From assembly GCA_949291975.1 (NCBI GenBank), contig CASEYA010000068.1:1-14922 (forward strand): DNA of 14,922 nucleotides. Direction: 5' to 3'. Below, piece by piece: positions 5,623 through 14,922 of this stretch; within the stretch, counting starts at the first letter, position 1, and every line of letters starts with the position of its first letter. The translations under genes and the position numbers were made by a program. The notes below the pieces were generated by a model that saw only the letters and a list, made by a program, of their open reading frames with translations, made no database searches and was not told the DNA's origin. Origin of the DNA: an uncultured Christensenella sp. (GTDB taxonomy: Bacteria > Bacillota > Clostridia > Christensenellales > UBA1242).

Positions 5623-6588
5623 ATGGCAAATTACATAGATGAAAAGTTTTATTCTTTAATTGGCGAATTTGAAAAAAATGATTTTTATCAAATTTATTCA
5701 CATATGGTAAAAAAGTTTAGGCAAATACCAAAAGTAACACAATCTTCTCTGGAATCTTATTTTAATCGCTATAATTATTGGGGAAATTTTAATATTTCAG
5801 AAGAAAACTTTGAAGTCCTTTTTCAAAAAGCAAAAATATTTAAAGAAAATGCACAAGATTATATTTGGTTATATGAAAATCTAGCAGACTATCAATCTAA
5901 AAATCTTCTTTATGCAATTTTAAACAATTTTTATAATTTTGATTTTAATAGTTTAAAAAATGCAACTGAAAATGTGTTTTTACAGTATTTTGATTTAAAT
6001 TTATTGCCAAAGTGTAAAAATGAAATTTTTGTTGATGTTGGTGCATATGTTGGAGATACCGTCCTTGATTTCATTAAATCATATGGGCAAGAAAGTTATG
6101 ATAAAATCTATTGCTATGATATTACTGACAAAATTTTAGATACAGCAAAAAATAATTTAAGTGCGTATAAAAATATTGAGTTTAGAAATAAAGCAGTTTC
6201 TAGCATTGCTGGAATTGCTACTATAAGTGAAAATACCTTTTCAGCTTCAGCTAATAAGACTAATAGCATTGAACAAAATGGCATTCAGGTAGATTCCGTT
6301 AAACTGGATGATGATATATCAGAAAAAATTACCCTTATAAAAATGGATATAGAAGGTGGCGAACAAGATGCAATTCGTGGAAGTATTCGACATATAAGAG
6401 AAGACCTGCCAAAAATGTTTTTATCAGTTTATCATAATAATGTTGATTTAATTGAGATACCAAAAATGATAAATAATATAACTTCACAATATAATTTTTA
6501 TCTTCGATATTATGGTGGTTGTGTATATCCAACCGAAATAGTGTTGGCTTGTTTGCCTAAAACGGCAGAAATGTGTGATATTAGATAA
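5623..6588 (+). CDS. FkbM-family SAM-dependent methyltransferase
   Basis: This 321-residue enzyme is likely to transfer a methyl group from S-adenosylmethionine to a hydroxyl, as FkbM-type proteins do on polyketides and sugars; the substrate is unknown. Residues ~1-130 form a helical extension of a kind common in clostridial members. The Rossmann part begins with FVDVGAYVGDT (about 136-146), which contains the glycine-rich SAM motif I. IYCYDI follows as motif II. KMDIEGGEQ (240-248) is the FkbM hallmark, and the C-terminus has SVYHNN...EIP and YLRYYGG. There is no signal peptide or membrane segment, so it acts in the cytoplasm. The ATG is preceded by an excellent AAAGGAGG. The gene stands alone between two terminators, with no glycosyltransferases next to it to indicate a glycan pathway. 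Confidence 0.93.
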   Translation: MANYIDEKFYSLIGEFEKNDFYQIYSHMVKKFRQIPKVTQSSLESYFNRYNYWGNFNISEENFEVLFQKAKIFKENAQDYIWLYENLADYQSKNLLYAILNNFYNFDFNSLKNATENVFLQYFDLNLLPKCKNEIFVDVGAYVGDTVLDFIKSYGQESYDKIYCYDITDKILDTAKNNLSAYKNIEFRNKAVSSIAGIATISENTFSASANKTNSIEQNGIQVDSVKLDDDISEKITLIKMDIEGGEQDAIRGSIRHIREDLPKMFLSVYHNNVDLIEIPKMINNITSQYNFYLRYYGGCVYPTEIVLACLPKTAEMCDIR

Positions 6589-6661
6589 TATTTTGTTAAA
6601 TTATATGTTGTAACTTTTATTATTTGAGCAAAAAACACTAGAATACTTATTAAATTTCTAT

Positions 6662-6691
6662 AAAAAAGCAGGCTTTAATTTCCTGCTTTTT
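6662..6691 (+). terminator. Rho-independent terminator after FkbM gene
   Basis: AAAAAGCAGG and CCTGCTTTTT form a perfect 10-base stem around a nine-base loop, with the T-run as part of the 3' arm. It lies about 75 bases after the methyltransferase stop. Confidence 0.88.
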
Positions 6692-6692
6692 C

Positions 6693-6721
6693 TTGCTTAT
6701 TAGATTTAGCAATGGTATAAT
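6693..6721 (+). promoter_or_regulatory. Promoter for the GH16 gene, extended -10
   Basis: TTGCTT at 6693-6698, a 17-base spacer and a perfect TATAAT at 6716-6721 preceded by TGG (extended -10). The predicted start is near 6728, giving a leader of about 40 bases. The -35 element begins right after the preceding terminator's T-run. Confidence 0.75.
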
Positions 6722-6766
6722 GAATATATAAAATGCTGTTTATATAAGAAATAAGGCGGTATTAAA

Positions 6767-7660
6767 TTGACAAAATCAAAAAAGATAACAATAATAATTG
6801 TAAGTTTATTTTTGTCTGTTATTTTTATATTTGCAAGCATCTTTTGCATTTTATGCTTTCCCATTGCCGATGTAATTGATGACGAGTTCATTTCTCAAAA
6901 TGTATCATTAAGTGAGATTAAAAAAGACTATCAAGAAGTATTTGTTGATGATTTTAATAGCGAAACGCTTGATATGAATTCATGGAACTTTGAAGGAAGC
7001 AGAGTGAATAGGAATAATGAATTACAAACATATGCTGACAGTATGGCAGACGGCAATGTTTTATTGGAAGAAGGTTGCCTTAGCATAGTTGCAAAAGAAG
7101 AAGGGCGGAATGGAAAAAATTATACATCAGCAAGCATAACGACGCAAGGCAAAGTTGCCTATAAATATGGTATATTTGAAATGAGAGCCAAACTTCCTTT
7201 TGGAAACGGGCTTTGGCCTGCATTTTGGCTTATGGGACAAACAAATTTCTTTAATGCACAACTTTGGCCAGTAACTGGTGAGATAGATATTATGGAGTCT
7301 ATTTGTGGCCGTGAAAATGATAACACAATTCACAGCACAATTCATTATGGAGGAACAATATTTTCTGGTTCACTTTATAGACAGGGTGGTTCATTTATCT
7401 TAGAGGAAGATAGATTTAGCAATGATTTTCATGTTTTTGGTGTAATTATAACCGATAGACAAATGCTTTTTTATGTGGATGATACAATTCACACATATAT
7501 TGATATAACAAGCCCCGAGTGTGACACATTCAGGAAATATGATAAATATATCATTATTAACTTAGCAATAGGAGGACAGTGGGCTGGCAGTCCAGATGAC
7601 TCTACCGTTTTTCCGAACAGTTATTTAATAGATTATGTAAAAATATATCAGCATATATAG
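6767..7660 (+). CDS. Glycoside hydrolase family 16 (laminarinase/beta-glucanase-like), membrane-anchored or secreted
   Basis: This 297-residue protein starts at TTG, with AAGGCGGT seven bases ahead; no ATG occurs in frame before residue 70, inside the catalytic domain. Residues 7-31 are a hydrophobic segment after a lysine-rich end, acting as signal peptide or membrane anchor; no clean lipobox is seen. The rest is a compact GH16 domain: FVDDFNSETLD, WNFEG, NNELQTY, the YGIFEMRAKLP strand, GLWPAFWLMG, and the active site GEIDIMES. In that site E172 is the expected nucleophile, D174 the assisting aspartate and E177 the acid/base. HSTIHYGG and a final YVKIYQ strand complete it. Family members cut beta-1,3 or mixed beta-1,3/1,4 glucans, outside the cell. 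The exact substrate cannot be read here. It has its own promoter, and no terminator separates it from the TrpF-like gene 54 bases on. Confidence 0.93.
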   Translation: MTKSKKITIIIVSLFLSVIFIFASIFCILCFPIADVIDDEFISQNVSLSEIKKDYQEVFVDDFNSETLDMNSWNFEGSRVNRNNELQTYADSMADGNVLLEEGCLSIVAKEEGRNGKNYTSASITTQGKVAYKYGIFEMRAKLPFGNGLWPAFWLMGQTNFFNAQLWPVTGEIDIMESICGRENDNTIHSTIHYGGTIFSGSLYRQGGSFILEEDRFSNDFHVFGVIITDRQMLFYVDDTIHTYIDITSPECDTFRKYDKYIIINLAIGGQWAGSPDDSTVFPNSYLIDYVKIYQHI

Positions 7661-7714
7661 ATTCATGCAAAAGTAATGGTTATAAATATAATTTTTTAAT
7701 TAAAGGTGAAAGTT

Positions 7715-8359
7715 ATGAATATACAAGTTGCGGGTATAACGAGTGTTAAAGAAGCACTATTATGTGTTGAGTGCGGGGTCAATATAATTGGCTTGCTTGT
7801 TGGACAAAAACACAAAAGTAATCAATTTATATCAAAAGAATTGGCCAAAACAATAAAAATGCATTTACCAGAAGAAATAAAAACAACACTTATCACACAT
7901 CTGGAAGATGCAGGTGAAATAGTTAAAATAGCGAAGTTTATTGATGTTGATTATATTCAATTGCATTCTTCAATAAATGAAGAGAGTGTTTTAAAAATTA
8001 AACAAGCCCTTCCAGATAAAAAAATTATCAGGTTAATACATATTGCAGAGGATGGAACAGTTTTAACAGATTATTTAAAAATGAAGGTTGTCGATTTCTA
8101 TTTTACAGATAGCAGGAATGAAAAGACTGGTCAGGTTGGAGGCACGGGACTGGTGCATAACTTTGAAACAGATAGAAAACTGGTAAGCACATTAAATAAA
8201 CCAGTGTTTATCGCTGGAGGATTGACTCCTGAAAATGTGGGTGAAGTTATAAAGCTTTGTCATCCATTTGGTGTTGATGTTAATTCAGGCTGTAAGGGGG
8301 CAAACGGCTTAACGGATGAGAAGAAAATGAGAGAGTTTGTAAAAAATGCTTTGATGTAA
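7715..8359 (+). CDS. Orphan phosphoribosylanthranilate isomerase-like (TrpF-fold) protein lacking the catalytic cysteine
   Basis: This is a 214-residue beta/alpha-barrel protein. The ATG at 7715 is chosen over the GTG at 7706 because AAAGGTGA, which overlaps that GTG, is then correctly spaced. TrpF landmarks in order: VAGITSVKEA (5-14), GVNIIGLLV, YIQLHSS (80-86), TDSR (131-134), GGTGL (142-146), FIAGGLTPENV (165-175) and GVDVNSG (186-192). TrpF converts phosphoribosylanthranilate to CdRP in tryptophan synthesis, using a Cys in the N-terminal KICGIT motif and an Asp in the barrel. Here the motif reads QVAGIT, so the Cys is Ala6. The Asp (D132) is present, but a seven-residue insert precedes GGTG. 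The Arg-containing loop after strand 2 reads KHKSNQF, with no Arg. No other trp genes are nearby. It may be a paralogue with a different phosphosugar-type substrate; isomerase activity is doubtful. It may be co-transcribed with the glucanase gene. Confidence 0.8.
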   Translation: MNIQVAGITSVKEALLCVECGVNIIGLLVGQKHKSNQFISKELAKTIKMHLPEEIKTTLITHLEDAGEIVKIAKFIDVDYIQLHSSINEESVLKIKQALPDKKIIRLIHIAEDGTVLTDYLKMKVVDFYFTDSRNEKTGQVGGTGLVHNFETDRKLVSTLNKPVFIAGGLTPENVGEVIKLCHPFGVDVNSGCKGANGLTDEKKMREFVKNALM

Positions 8360-9548: not shown

Positions 9549-9577
9549 AAAAAGAGTCGTTATTCAGACTTTTTTTC
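9549..9577. terminator. Bidirectional terminator between convergent genes
   Basis: AAAGAGTC pairs with GACTTTTT (one G-U) around an eight-base loop. On the plus strand it is followed by a T-run and closes the lipoprotein gene. Read on the minus strand the same hairpin is followed by T-rich sequence (TTTTTAATATG). The minus-strand stop codon (9562-9560) lies in the loop, so the hairpin includes the last codons of the opposing gene. Confidence 0.75.
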
Positions 9578-10282
9578 TATTTTACTTTTTTGAATGCTGT
9601 TTTCCTCATTTTTATTTTTTTCTAGATATAAATTTTTCTTCTTGTAAATAATTTTTGTAAATAGCCATATAACAACAGCAATAGTAATTGATAAAATTTT
9701 ACCAACATAAGAGGATAACAATATCCATCCAAAGTTATCATTAAAGCCTCCGTCAAGGATGGCAAGACCACCATAGTAAATAAAAGAATTAATTAAACTT
9801 GCTAAAAAGGCACACAAAATAAAAATTAAATATTCATTCCAATTTTTTTGTTGTAGTTTTTGTGGTAATTTCAAAATCAAGAAAACAGCAACAAAGGTTG
9901 CCAAAGCACTTAAAATGTTTGATAAAAGTCCATAAGTGACTCCGCTTTCTATTCCTGTTGAACCCCAACTTGCACAAAATTGTAAAACTGCATTAAATAG
10001 CACAGCACCAATTCCTGAATACATTAAAAGATAGGCTGTTTTATTTTGATTTTCTAAAACAAGCAGAATAACACAAGATAGGAATAGGGTATATATGACA
10101 GAATCAATTCCAAAAACGAAATTACCATCAACAATTGGATAGTCTATAATGTGATAGACATTAGAACCAACAATTCCTCCAATTCCTAAGGTTATTAAAC
10201 CGTTGCTGCCAAAAATATGCTTAACTATAAATAGCAAAACAAAGCAAAAAACACTTACAATTAAAATCAGCCAAAATCCCAT
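9560..10282 (-). CDS. Multi-pass membrane protein, divergent VUT/YhhQ-like (queuosine-precursor transporter family?)
   Basis: This is a 240-residue protein. The start codon at 10282-10280 is preferred because AAGGAG lies seven bases upstream of this ATG; a longer frame back to 10381 adds a charged, unlikely N-terminus. About six hydrophobic helices are seen, followed by a highly charged Lys/Glu/Asn tail of ~30 residues. The pattern resembles VUT/YhhQ proteins: an opening helix then FGSNGL, a GSNVYHII helix, GNFVFGIDSVIYTLF, a loop with ENQNKTAY, a late helix FLASLINSFIYYGGLAIL and a final SYVGKILSITIAVVIWLF. Family members import queuosine precursors. The match is by shape and spacing only and the polar residues are not all conserved, so the substrate is a guess. 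No queuosine genes are nearby. The 3' end overlaps the shared terminator. Confidence 0.78.
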   Translation of the reverse strand: MGFWLILIVSVFCFVLLFIVKHIFGSNGLITLGIGGIVGSNVYHIIDYPIVDGNFVFGIDSVIYTLFLSCVILLVLENQNKTAYLLMYSGIGAVLFNAVLQFCASWGSTGIESGVTYGLLSNILSALATFVAVFLILKLPQKLQQKNWNEYLIFILCAFLASLINSFIYYGGLAILDGGFNDNFGWILLSSYVGKILSITIAVVIWLFTKIIYKKKNLYLEKNKNEENSIQKSKIEKKSE

Positions 10283-10342
10283 TTTAAAACTCCTTGAGCT
10301 AAGAATATCATAATAATTGCAAAAAGAAAAGTATTTTTTGCG

Positions 10343-10371
10343 TTGACAATAATTTTTTACTGTGATAAACT
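10343..10371 (+). promoter_or_regulatory. Promoter for the 10417 gene
   Basis: A perfect TTGACA at 10343-10348, 17 bases, then TAAACT at 10366-10371. The predicted start is near 10378, giving a ~39-base leader that contains AAGGAG. It lies just upstream of, and diverges from, the minus-strand membrane protein gene. Confidence 0.7.
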
Positions 10372-10416
10372 TGATGTGCAATTTTAATGTTACTGTTAAA
10401 ATTTAAGGAGAAATAA

Positions 10417-11632: not shown

Positions 11633-14059
11633 GTGTTAATAGCACAAATTGTTGTTTTGGCGATAGTTGCAATTTCTTTAATATGTGCTTATTTTATTCT
11701 AAAAGTTAAAAAAATTAAAATTCCAGATATTGCATATAAAATTGTTTCTGGAATTTTAGCGCTCATATTCTTTTTCCGCTTTATGTTGGGAGATGATGCG
11801 ATAAGTGAGATTTTCGCTTTAACAAACTCGCCAATAGATAATAGTTTTTTAACTGCCATAAGTCTTATTTTAAACTGGTTTTTATACGCAGTTATTTTGC
11901 TTGTTGTGCTTTATCCATTTTTTAAAAACAGCAAATATGCAACTGTGATTAAATATTTTGGACTTATTGTTACTGTATTATGCACTGGATTTATATATTA
12001 TTTGACAACTGGCATTATTGGAACAAGTGCATATGAAGGTTTTTCTGTTAGAGCTTTGCTTATTGGCTTAGAGCTTGGAATTTTGCTTGCATATTGTTTT
12101 GTTGTTTTTATGGAAAATGGCAAATTTAAAGTTAGCAAAAATGATGCATGGGGTTTTGCTTATATTGTTGGAATGCTTCTTGCCACAATGCCTTCATATA
12201 TGCTTTGTGCTTTGTTTGGAAACTTAAATTATGCAATTCCAGTGGATAAATTAAGTCAGCCTCACAGAATTATATTGTATTTATCCTTTATTATACCTTT
12301 TGTTTTATATGTCCTTTTAAGAAAGAAAGACAGTGAAACGGTCAGAGGAATTTTACTTTATATAAGTCTTGGCACGCTTTTAACATTTAGTATTAACTAT
12401 CGTTTTGCAGATTTCCTTGATGTTACTCATTGGCCAATTCATCTTTGCAACACTGCTATGTATATTATTCCACTTTGTTTGATTTTTAAGTGGAACAAAT
12501 TGTTCTATTTTACATATTTTATAAATGTTTTAGGCGCATTATTTGCAATGGTTATGCCAAATTATGATGAAACAATGAATCTGTTTTCAGACCGCATAGT
12601 ATCTTTTTATGTTAATCACTTTATAGCGTTCTTTATGCCAATTTTAATGGTAGCACTAAAAGTTTATAAGAGACCACGACTTAAAGAATTTAAGTATTCC
12701 ATGATTGGATTTTTAATCTACTTTATTATAGTTTTAATATTTAATGCATGGTTTAGTAATTATGGTGATGTTGATTACTTCTTCCTTAATAGTGATTTTA
12801 TTCCAGCAAAACTTGGCTCATGGGCAGTTGACTTAATGAATATTCAACTAGCATTCAGCATAGGAGGCTTAGATTTTGTTTTCTATCCAGTTTATCAAAT
12901 TCTATTCTTCTTGGTCTATGTCCTTCTTGGTGCTGCTGTTTGGTTTGTTTACGAAGGGGCATATTCATTTGCTGATACTGTTAATGATATAATTGAAAGG
13001 AAAAGAAAAATCAAAATGGACCAACTTGCGCTTGAAATTCAACTTGCAGGAAGGAAAAGGGAGGAACCTATGAATATAGATGGAGTAAACAAGGTTATTT
13101 TGCGTAACTTTACAAAACGCTATGGCAAAAGCAATGTTTATGCGGTTAAAGATGTGAATCTTGAAGTACATGGCGGAGAAATTTTTGGCTTTTTAGGACA
13201 CAATGGTGCAGGTAAAAGCACAATCATAAAGAGCATGGTTGGAATTCAGCCTATAACCAGTGGCAACATAGAGATATGTGGCTATGATATGGACAAGCAA
13301 TCGGTTATGGCAAAACAAAATATTGGATATGTTCCTGACCATTATGCACTTTATGAGAAGTTAACAGGGCGTGAATATATATCATATATAGCAGATTTAT
13401 ATCATGTCAGCCCAGAACAACGCAATCTTGCAATTGCAAAATATGTTTCATTGTTTGAATTAAATGATGCTTTTGATAACCAAATCAAAACATACAGTCA
13501 TGGAATGAAGCAAAAAATTGCAATCATGTCGGCACTTGTTCACAATCCAAAGGTTTGGATTCTTGACGAACCATTAACGGGTCTGGACCCAGTTAGTATT
13601 TTTCAGGTAAAAGAGTGTATGAGGCAACACGCAAAAGAAGGAAATATTGTTATTTTTAGTAGTCACTTGATTGACATAGTAGAAAATTTGTGTGATAAAA
13701 TTGCAATTATAAAGCGCGGACGGATTTTAAGCACAACAAATGTCAATGATGTTTTGTCAAAACAATCACTTGAAGACTACTATCTTGATGTAACAAAAAC
13801 TCCAGTTGATTATTCCTATGTGGAAAAGGAAATTCTTGATAAAGAGCAAGAGTTGATTAATTCAAAGAGAATTCGGGATAAAAAGGGGAATAAAGGCAAA
13901 ATTGATAGTGAAGAAAAAATAAAAATAGGGGAAGAAAATAAAGAAACTTCACAAATTGATTTGGTTGCCGAAAATATAAAAGACAAAACTGAATCAGCGT
14001 TAAAGCATGAAAGTTATGATGTAAAAATAAAAGTGAAAAAATCTAAGCGTAAAAAATAA
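11633..14059 (+). CDS. YwaF-like polytopic membrane domain fused to ABC transporter ATPase
   Basis: This 808-residue protein starts at GTG, with AGGAG six bases upstream. Residues 1-445 hold about 12 membrane helices. The second half of these (~210-400) matches the YwaF/TIGR02206 pattern: HWPIHLCNTAMYI with H270-L-C-N273, YFINVLGALFAMVMPNYDE, FYVNHFIAFFMPILM around N328-H329, and NAWFSNYGDVDYFFLN. A charged linker (~447-479) leads to a complete ABC ATPase: Walker A GHNGAGKST (522-530), Q-loop region NIGYVPDHYALYEKLTG, signature YSHGMKQK (621-628; SHGMK in place of LSGGQ, as is usual in drug/bacteriocin-type exporters), Walker B VWILDEP with D645-E646, and the H-loop SSHL (H678). A Lys/Glu-rich tail of ~80 residues ends KKSKRKK. 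The ATPase would sit in the cytoplasm and drive the permease encoded 19 bases downstream. YwaF function is unknown; the fusion suggests a sensing or partner role. Confidence 0.9.
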   Translation: MLIAQIVVLAIVAISLICAYFILKVKKIKIPDIAYKIVSGILALIFFFRFMLGDDAISEIFALTNSPIDNSFLTAISLILNWFLYAVILLVVLYPFFKNSKYATVIKYFGLIVTVLCTGFIYYLTTGIIGTSAYEGFSVRALLIGLELGILLAYCFVVFMENGKFKVSKNDAWGFAYIVGMLLATMPSYMLCALFGNLNYAIPVDKLSQPHRIILYLSFIIPFVLYVLLRKKDSETVRGILLYISLGTLLTFSINYRFADFLDVTHWPIHLCNTAMYIIPLCLIFKWNKLFYFTYFINVLGALFAMVMPNYDETMNLFSDRIVSFYVNHFIAFFMPILMVALKVYKRPRLKEFKYSMIGFLIYFIIVLIFNAWFSNYGDVDYFFLNSDFIPAKLGSWAVDLMNIQLAFSIGGLDFVFYPVYQILFFLVYVLLGAAVWFVYEGAYSFADTVNDIIERKRKIKMDQLALEIQLAGRKREEPMNIDGVNKVILRNFTKRYGKSNVYAVKDVNLEVHGGEIFGFLGHNGAGKSTIIKSMVGIQPITSGNIEICGYDMDKQSVMAKQNIGYVPDHYALYEKLTGREYISYIADLYHVSPEQRNLAIAKYVSLFELNDAFDNQIKTYSHGMKQKIAIMSALVHNPKVWILDEPLTGLDPVSIFQVKECMRQHAKEGNIVIFSSHLIDIVENLCDKIAIIKRGRILSTTNVNDVLSKQSLEDYYLDVTKTPVDYSYVEKEILDKEQELINSKRIRDKKGNKGKIDSEEKIKIGEENKETSQIDLVAENIKDKTESALKHESYDVKIKVKKSKRKK
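13056..13072 (+). promoter_or_regulatory. Internal ribosome binding site and ATG at the membrane/ATPase junction
   Basis: AAAAGGGAGG followed five bases later by ATG (13070-13072, Met480), in frame with the long protein. It is placed exactly before the ATPase domain (MNIDGVNKVILRNFTKRYG). It is as strong as any gene-start site in the window and could yield a 329-residue free ATPase. Confidence 0.6.
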
Positions 14060-14078: not shown

Positions 14079-14922
14079 ATGAAAAAATTTAATGCACTAG
14101 TTATGATGCAGCTTAAAGATAAGGTTGACTTTTCTTTTACCAAGAGTAAAAAGGCAACCATTTTCAAAGTTGTTTTGGGAATTTTAAAATTTGCAATTAT
14201 AACTGCTGTGTTTTATTTTGCCTTTTTTATATTGGAATATTTACGACTCGTATCACTTCTCCCAGGAATACCGCAAAACTTTTTTAATGTTTTGTTTACA
14301 ATAATGTTTTTACTTTCTGTTGTTGTTTGCACTTTTAAGTTGATGAATAATCTTTATTTTACAAAAGATAATCCACTTTTGTTAACATTACCAACAGACA
14401 GAACAAGCATTTTTACATCAAAGATAATTGTTTATTATTTATATGAACTTATAAGAAATCTAAGTTATATGCTTCCACTTTTTGTGGCATATGGAATAAT
14501 TAATGGTTTGCCTTTTTACTTCTATTTGTGGCTTGTTGTTGCATATCCAATTATAACTGCTTTGCCTGTTGTTATTGGTGCATTGTTATCTATTCCTTTA
14601 ATGTATATAACAATTTTTATCAAACAATATAAAACTTTGCAAATTTCTTTAACAGCATTAGGTTTAGCGGGCGTGGTTGCACTTCTTATATTTATAATAA
14701 GTAAAATCCCAGCCAACATTGACCTAATTTCAACTTGGGGGACAACATATTGGGAAATTCAAGATTTTTTGACTTCTTTTAATCAAATTTTTGTTCCTAT
14801 CACTTATATTGTAACTTTTGTAATAGGGGCAAGAGCGGGTTCAGTTAATCAATTCTTTATTATTGACCAATTGTGGTGCTTCTTTGGAATAATGCTTTGC
14901 ATTTTGGTTGTTTTGGGTTTAA
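14079..14922 (+). CDS. ABC exporter permease (ABC-2-like), 3' partial
   Basis: The frame opens at ATG 14079 and stays open for 281 codons to the window edge, so the gene is truncated here by the window. AAAAAGG precedes the start. The N-terminus MKKFNALVMMQLKDKVDFSF is the amphipathic lead-in typical of permeases of putative Bacillota ABC exporters. Then come about six hydrophobic segments, among them FAIITAVFYFAFFIL, FTIMFLLSVVVC and ALGLAGVVALLIFIIS. A cytoplasmic loop has YFTKDNPLLLTLPTDRTSIFTSK, the LL.LP...F..K pattern seen in these permeases. The gene begins 19 bases after the ATPase fusion, so translation is probably coupled and the products are likely to form one transporter. The substrate is unknown. 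Such families handle peptides, antibiotics or envelope components. Confidence 0.85.
   Translation, partial: MKKFNALVMMQLKDKVDFSFTKSKKATIFKVVLGILKFAIITAVFYFAFFILEYLRLVSLLPGIPQNFFNVLFTIMFLLSVVVCTFKLMNNLYFTKDNPLLLTLPTDRTSIFTSKIIVYYLYELIRNLSYMLPLFVAYGIINGLPFYFYLWLVVAYPIITALPVVIGALLSIPLMYITIFIKQYKTLQISLTALGLAGVVALLIFIISKIPANIDLISTWGTTYWEIQDFLTSFNQIFVPITYIVTFVIGARAGSVNQFFIIDQLWCFFGIMLCILVVLGL

Follow-up and report, generated by a model that had tools for sequence, protein, structure and literature searches.

A TMEM164/YwaF-type membrane domain fused to an ABC ATPase in a lipoprotein operon of uncultured gut clostridia, with a conserved putative internal translation start

What does a membrane domain of the TMEM164/YwaF family do in one polypeptide with the ATPase of an ATP-binding cassette (ABC) transporter? 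The question is raised by a contig of an uncultured Christensenella sp. (CASEYA010000068.1, assembly GCA_949291975.1), whose 14,922 nucleotides were analysed as a whole and will be referred to as the window. On its plus strand, a single uninterrupted open reading frame (ORF; 11633..14059), starting with GTG and immediately preceded by the Shine-Dalgarno (SD) sequence TTAGGAG, encodes a protein of 808 amino acids that consists, in this order, of an N-terminal membrane region, a TMEM164/YwaF domain and an ABC ATPase. We suggest, with somewhat less than even confidence, that this locus specifies an acyltransferase-coupled ABC machine, which would transfer acyl groups at the outer leaflet of the membrane with the lipoprotein of the same operon as the likeliest acceptor.

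Profile searches confirmed the fusion, which a preliminary description made from the sequence had pointed out, and supported the accompanying interpretation in part. Residues 208-391 (12254..12805) matched Pfam family PF14808 with an E-value of 3.9e-20 and 72.7 bits, above the curated cut-off of 25 bits, whereas the score of the membrane part against TIGR02206 (intg_mem_TP0381, YwaF) was 62.9 bits (E-value 2.7e-17; 64.5 bits with a shorter piece) at a curated cut-off of 75 bits. The domain is a member of the TMEM164 family as defined by Pfam and lies outside TIGR02206 by NCBI's threshold. The signatures named for it were all found (HLCN at residues 270-273, GALFAMVMPNY at 301-311 and NH at 328-329). 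In the same chain, the ABC_tran core (PF00005) was matched by residues 505-648 (13145..13576) with an E-value of 2e-28 and 100.2 bits, and the motifs of an exporter-type ATPase were intact, comprising the Walker A motif GHNGAGKS, the signature region YSHGMKQK (SHGMKQ), the Walker B motif ILDEP and the H-loop SSH at residues 676-678. Walker A was identical in 81 of 81 aligned fusions, the other motifs in 80 of them with one gap.

The extra membrane region of about 200 residues (residues 1-205; 11633..12247) was also correctly noticed; it contains six hydrophobic segments and gave no match at a meaningful level in Pfam or NCBIfam. An AlphaFold2 model of the fusion calculated from 82 sequences (mean predicted local distance difference test score 84.7, predicted template modelling (TM) score 0.70) placed helices at residues 2-25, 32-51, 71-96, 100-119, 121-129, 139-161 and 169-184 of this region, and further downstream a long helix (419-471), followed by a linker and the ABC fold starting at residue 487. 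Hydropathy averaged across relatives yielded 13 hydrophobic segments for the fusion with loops alternating in positive charge, and this positive-inside pattern predicts an N-terminus outside and an ATPase inside the cell. Sequence searches of the PDB returned nothing matching the membrane part, and the matches listed in a structure look-up with the fusion model were ABC ATPases, the ABC domain filling the list. The N-terminal region bears a weak resemblance to the YwaF domain in the first two helices of each; a profile comparison aligned these helices over 42 columns with a probability of 13.5% and an E-value of 0.002, and the region is possibly a degenerate YwaF duplicate.

The architecture recurs in many independent genomes, so an assembly error joining two genes, considered as the source of the fusion, was ruled out. 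A homologue search found 1347 proteins among the best 7999 candidates scored, and 119 of the 120 best homologues listed carried both Pfam domains, the exception being a 459-amino-acid protein on a contig of 2.2 kb. A scan of a genome collection, which was seeded with YwaF patterns of fused proteins and hence biased to fusions, gave 203 loci, of which the best 80 were kept; all 80 contained the fusion, truncated by the contig end in five cases. The bins of most of these loci bear the label Clostridia, Clostridiales or Christensenella, while seven of the 80 loci are labelled Bacilli or Erysipelotrichales/-aceae, and the fusion occurs in uncultured gut clostridia. Among 297 genomes of the window's order, 47 gave a match and 37 contained an ORF of fusion length (>600 amino acids). 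A class-wide search with an unfused relative, a weak query applied to few genomes of the order, hit 5 of 391 genomes, all belonging to the window's order. All counts given here derive from relatives that share ancestry and are not to be read as probabilities. Two loci are labelled Corallococcus sp. (L124, JAMPEJ010000003.1) and Prevotella sp. (L153, JAMPCO010000029.1), yet contain the clostridial operon; these labels are probably wrong.

Within the TMEM164/YwaF domain, Cys272 (codon 12446..12448) and His329 (codon 12617..12619), separated by 57 residues, were kept in all 81 aligned fusions and, in a second comparison, in each of 34 fusions and each of 5 relatives without the fusion. The predicted topology would place both residues in the membrane's outer half: Cys272, the candidate nucleophile, where hydrophobic segment 9 ends on the outer side, and His329, its candidate catalytic partner, within the outward-facing half of segment 11. 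TMEM164 is said to use a catalytic Cys and His about 58 residues apart, as reportedly found by Reed in 2023. NCBI's current name for TIGR02206 is TMEM164-related integral membrane acyltransferase, and human TMEM164 and LhaT are reported acyltransferases of the same superfamily (PMC12345273). With the renamed family and the conserved pair, the description of YwaF proteins as being of unknown function is less supported. The fusion shares with this ATGY superfamily (TMEM164/YwaF, LhaT/YpjA) the Pfam domain and the invariant pair, and the extracellular reaction of LhaT would fit the outer-leaflet position predicted here (PMC12345273). It differs in its six-segment N-terminal region, its ABC ATPase and its place inside an ABC operon, as well as in scoring below the TIGR02206 cut-off and in not belonging to DUF1405, the family of LhaT (PF07187, no match at E-values up to 0.1).

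The fusion gene comes first in a conserved operon of four genes, the others encoding, in this order, an ABC-2-type permease, a small protein (one helix, extracytoplasmic domain) and a large lipoprotein. Where the contig was long enough, the permease was present in 78 of 78 loci (2 of the 80 end before it and were excluded), the small protein in 72 of 72 and the lipoprotein in 68 of 69. That a separate permease gene follows had been described before, and its presence as the next gene at every one of these loci is what had been proposed as support for a distinct exporter class. At L066, L070, L072 and L073, it was found at places overlapped by antisense ORFs. In the window, the permease gene (14079..14921, plus strand) is interrupted by the contig end after 281 of about 549 amino acids, the full-length relative at locus L042 having 549. 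The window fragment matched PF16949 (ABC_tran_2) with 29.3 bits at a cut-off of 25.7 bits, whereas the L042 relative gave no match and that of L078 reached 19.7 bits. The complete permease of about 550 amino acids shows two sets of hydrophobic segments, and PDB sequence searches found no solved structure matching this family. The remainder of the operon was located on another contig of the window's own genome (C138 of G000, locus L213), which encodes the C-terminal 269 amino acids of the permease, a small protein of 156 amino acids and at least 698 amino acids of the lipoprotein; the two contig ends share 6 bases only, and their adjacency rests on the permease match. The small protein and the lipoprotein that complete the operon were missed in the preliminary description, as was the conserved internal start described below.

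A lipobox Cys was present in 63 of 63 aligned lipoproteins, namely 52 of the 62 uncut operon lipoproteins and 11 database proteins. The lipoprotein bears an N-terminal immunoglobulin-like (Ig-like) part and probably contains a beta-helix, as suggested by a second inspection of its structure model and the strand pattern of that model. In Foldseek, Ig-like S-layer domains ranked top with low TM-scores and beta-helix proteins appeared only at an E-value of about 0.015; NosD was absent from the 50 structure matches listed in either listing. When a profile of the lipoprotein beyond the Ig-like part was run against the 297 genomes of the order, 31 matched, and the fusion was present in 30 of these 31 compared with 37 of 297 overall.

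The fusion gene itself appears to hold a second start. At the domain boundary, linker codons form the sequence AGGGAGG AACCT ATG (13058-13072), in which an SD sequence (AGGGAGG, 13058..13064, plus strand) precedes an in-frame ATG (13070-13072, Met480), from which a free ABC ATPase of 329 amino acids (13070..14059) would be translated. The calculated anti-SD pairing energy of this site was -11.9 kcal/mol, compared with -7.3 for the start of the fusion and -4.0 for that of the permease (all energies in kcal/mol). Of the 81 aligned genes, 79 had a residue at the site, and 65 of these 79 had a start codon at exactly this column; ranked by mean energy, columns 478-480 took the first three places among 729 (-7.9 at column 480, -1.3 overall); the mean for downstream gene starts was -6.8 (218 starts). 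Pairing at -4.5 or better was found in 93% of the ATG-bearing sequences at the site versus 0-18% at 16 other ATG-rich columns. Since shuffling of synonymous codons still gave a mean of -4.0 instead of the observed -7.9, the amino acids account for about half of the energy of the site; observed minus shuffled amounted to -3.85 here and to 0.13 +/- 0.31 at 63 control positions.

The argument for the internal start is carried by its shift from clade to clade together with the controls. An in-frame start with an energy of -6.4 or better was present between 35 and 51 codons ahead of Walker A in each of the 33 fusions from the genus and order sets, among them fusions whose membrane parts share only about 30% identity; its exact place varied between clades, lying mostly at -42, -40 or -35 codons. 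After removal of duplicates (114 genes reduced to 99), a start codon was found within a 20-codon window in 98 of 99 genes and one combined with an SD sequence (-5.5 or better) in 95, compared with 7.9% of 3459 background windows and with 19% and 8% for the two other frames of the same window. Other membrane-fused ABC domains had such a site in 5 of 32 cases versus 93 of 97 fusions, or in 0 of 32 versus 67 of 97 at a threshold of -7.5, and a Met occurred within 10 linker residues in 75 of 79 database relatives versus 24% of background windows. Some of the counts speak against an internal start: a good one was missing in 4 of the 99 genes (L109, L113, L123 and L150), in 26 genes another window outscored that of the internal start, 47% of the windows still qualified after synonymous shuffling, which is due to amino acid content alone, and taken singly only 35% of the genes surpassed 95% of their own shuffles (p 0.05). 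Because of these last two figures, the case rests on the ensemble of genes. The site might merely slow ribosomes between the two domains or be a relic of two former genes, and no free ATPase would then be made. Split arrangements do exist, e.g., at L078 with separate genes for 472 and 244 amino acids. A relic should decay, yet the site moves while keeping an in-frame start, which pausing would not require, so that we regard this explanation as rather improbable. We consider instead that the one ORF probably yields two proteins, the fusion and the free ATPase. A precedent is provided by cas8b, in which an internal start yields Cas11b; there, likewise, a C-terminal part is made separately from an internal ATG and subunit numbers are unequal (PMC11899642), while the nested product proposed here is a transporter ATPase deduced from sequence.

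The acyltransferase-coupled machine might work as follows. A single-chain, two-lobed permease would be paired with one ATPase of the fused and one of the free form. Powered by ATP hydrolysis, it would deliver a lipid to the outer leaflet or hold it in place there, and the YwaF domain would transfer an acyl group at this site. The acceptor would most likely be the operon's own lipoprotein, or a lipid handled by it, and the folded part of this lipoprotein may represent the surface-exposed working part. In a further-reaching and doubtful, though conceivable, version, the locus would represent an undescribed class of ABC systems performing ATP-powered acylation of a dedicated lipoprotein, in which a conserved internal ribosome-binding site in one gene gives two unequal ATPases. 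One ATPase subunit would carry the outer-leaflet ATGY acyltransferase and the other would be bare, both acting on the single two-lobed permease. Neither a TMEM164/YwaF-ABC fusion nor a free bacterial ABC ATPase arising by internal initiation was reported in the open-licence literature searched, judged by titles and abstract openings, and the family names led to no study devoted by its title to a YwaF protein.

Several findings weigh against acyl transfer to the lipoprotein. The domain falls short of the TIGR02206 cut-off, the catalytic role of Cys272 and His329 is proposed by analogy, and the lipoprotein is a candidate acceptor by operon linkage and co-occurrence only. Nothing in the ATPase sequence points to a lipid substrate; an apparent closeness to the ABCA lipid transporters was withdrawn, as the scores of two ABCA domains had been summed, and, among the three listed, the best single ABCA domain (ABCA3, 116.4 bits) scored below the single-domain Thermotoga ATPase 1vpl (136.8 bits). 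Seven of the 37 fusion genomes lacked a lipoprotein match beyond the Ig-like part at an E-value of 1e-15, and conversely genome G172 has the lipoprotein but no fusion. Of 18 unfused YwaF genes, 13 were without a neighbouring ABC gene of this kind. The system is also patchy, as the fusion was present in 4 of 9 genomes of the window's genus compared with 8 of 9 for lgt, and DUF1405 (PF07187) matched in 0 of 9. From these genus counts, it is an accessory system and no housekeeping lipoprotein acyltransferase. The G172 lipoprotein gene (L214:4534-6633) is possibly an orphan, since the 9 kb read gave no match to fusion, permease or small protein.

How do other readings of the operon compare? The preliminary description had considered the YwaF module as a ligand sensor or an extra transmembrane partner, here of a drug or peptide exporter. 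The DrrA-type profile (TIGR01188) was indeed the top NCBIfam match of the ATPase, with 204.7 bits at a cut-off of 312.45 bits. Nevertheless, the invariant Cys/His pair, the acyltransferase name of the family and the lipoprotein partner lead us to favour the acyl-transfer machine, and no conserved regulator or peptide gene accompanied the operon across the loci compared; the sensor is less supported and, in our judgement, very improbable. Compared with DrrA-type exporters, which share the ABC-2 permease type (PF16949, window fragment), the ATPase stays below their cut-off and is carried by an enzyme-like membrane domain, and the permease belongs to a family lacking sequence matches among solved structures. 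Alternatively, the operon could encode a lipid-remodelling transporter, in which the ABC part moves phospholipids or glycolipids and YwaF adds acyl chains back to them, the lipoprotein acting separately as an effector or receptor within the same regulon. This would agree with TMEM164, which moves acyl chains between phospholipids (PMC10474074; PMC12345273). The close linkage and co-occurrence with one lipoprotein family, however, suggest that the lipoprotein belongs to the machine, and with the ABCA resemblance a further argument for lipid transport failed, so that we hold this explanation to be unlikely.

A fair rival, though likewise unlikely, is a mechanical machine similar to NosDFY, in which ATPase and permease would push or pull a docked surface protein of beta-helix type, with the YwaF domain as a non-catalytic membrane scaffold or regulator. 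The lipoprotein model does show a fold resembling a beta-helix, but an invariant Cys272/His329 pair is unexpected for a mere scaffold and none of the three lipoproteins scanned (L042, L046 and L058) matched the NosD Pfam family at E-values up to 0.1. In comparison with the NosDFY copper-maturation complex, the operon has an acyltransferase-like module and presumably a nested ATPase, and its probable beta-helix protein is lipid-anchored and carries an Ig-like domain.

With ATPase, permease and lipoprotein in one fixed operon and with an intact Cys/His pair, the 'unknown' YwaF proteins become candidate outer-leaflet acyltransferases that can be put to the test. The operon is also relevant to a question raised in PMC12345273, namely by what route the acyl donors needed for modifying lipoproteins outside the cell get through the membrane; for LhaT, which acylates lipoprotein N-termini on the outer face, the route of the lipid donor is unknown. 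If true, the internal start would let a single gene give rise to an asymmetric ABC transporter, and it illustrates that a second protein can go unnoticed when fusions of this kind are annotated.

Unfused YwaF genes were compared at 23 loci, of which 18 matched the YwaF profile and L176-L180 did not. ABC and permease neighbours were found at 5 of the 18. At L078, the split form consists of a protein comprising N-terminal region and YwaF (472 amino acids), an ABC protein (244 amino acids), the permease, an Ig-like protein and a large lipobox protein, which was not matched by the lipoprotein profile. L079, L081 and L170 contain in a row genes for ABC, permease, a large extracytoplasmic protein and a YwaF protein of about 290 amino acids, and L172 has the same genes arranged divergently. 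Three adjacent ORFs at L182 (9785-12585; 276, 327 and 263 amino acids) matched the YwaF profile with 55, 35 and 29 bits, with no ABC match near them. At L077 (7155-9392), a YwaF-like ORF of 241 amino acids lies immediately 5′ of a 500-amino-acid protein of N-terminal region and YwaF, again with no ABC match nearby.

Elsewhere in the window, an ORF of 1110 amino acids that is open at the contig start (2-3334) showed a weak GLUG motif match and possibly encodes a surface protein. Genes for an FkbM-type methyltransferase, a family-16 glycosyl hydrolase and a phosphoribosylanthranilate isomerase follow in a row (5623-8359), and the minus strand encodes a protein with a sub-threshold DUF4153 match (9560-10381; 24.9 versus 27 bits).
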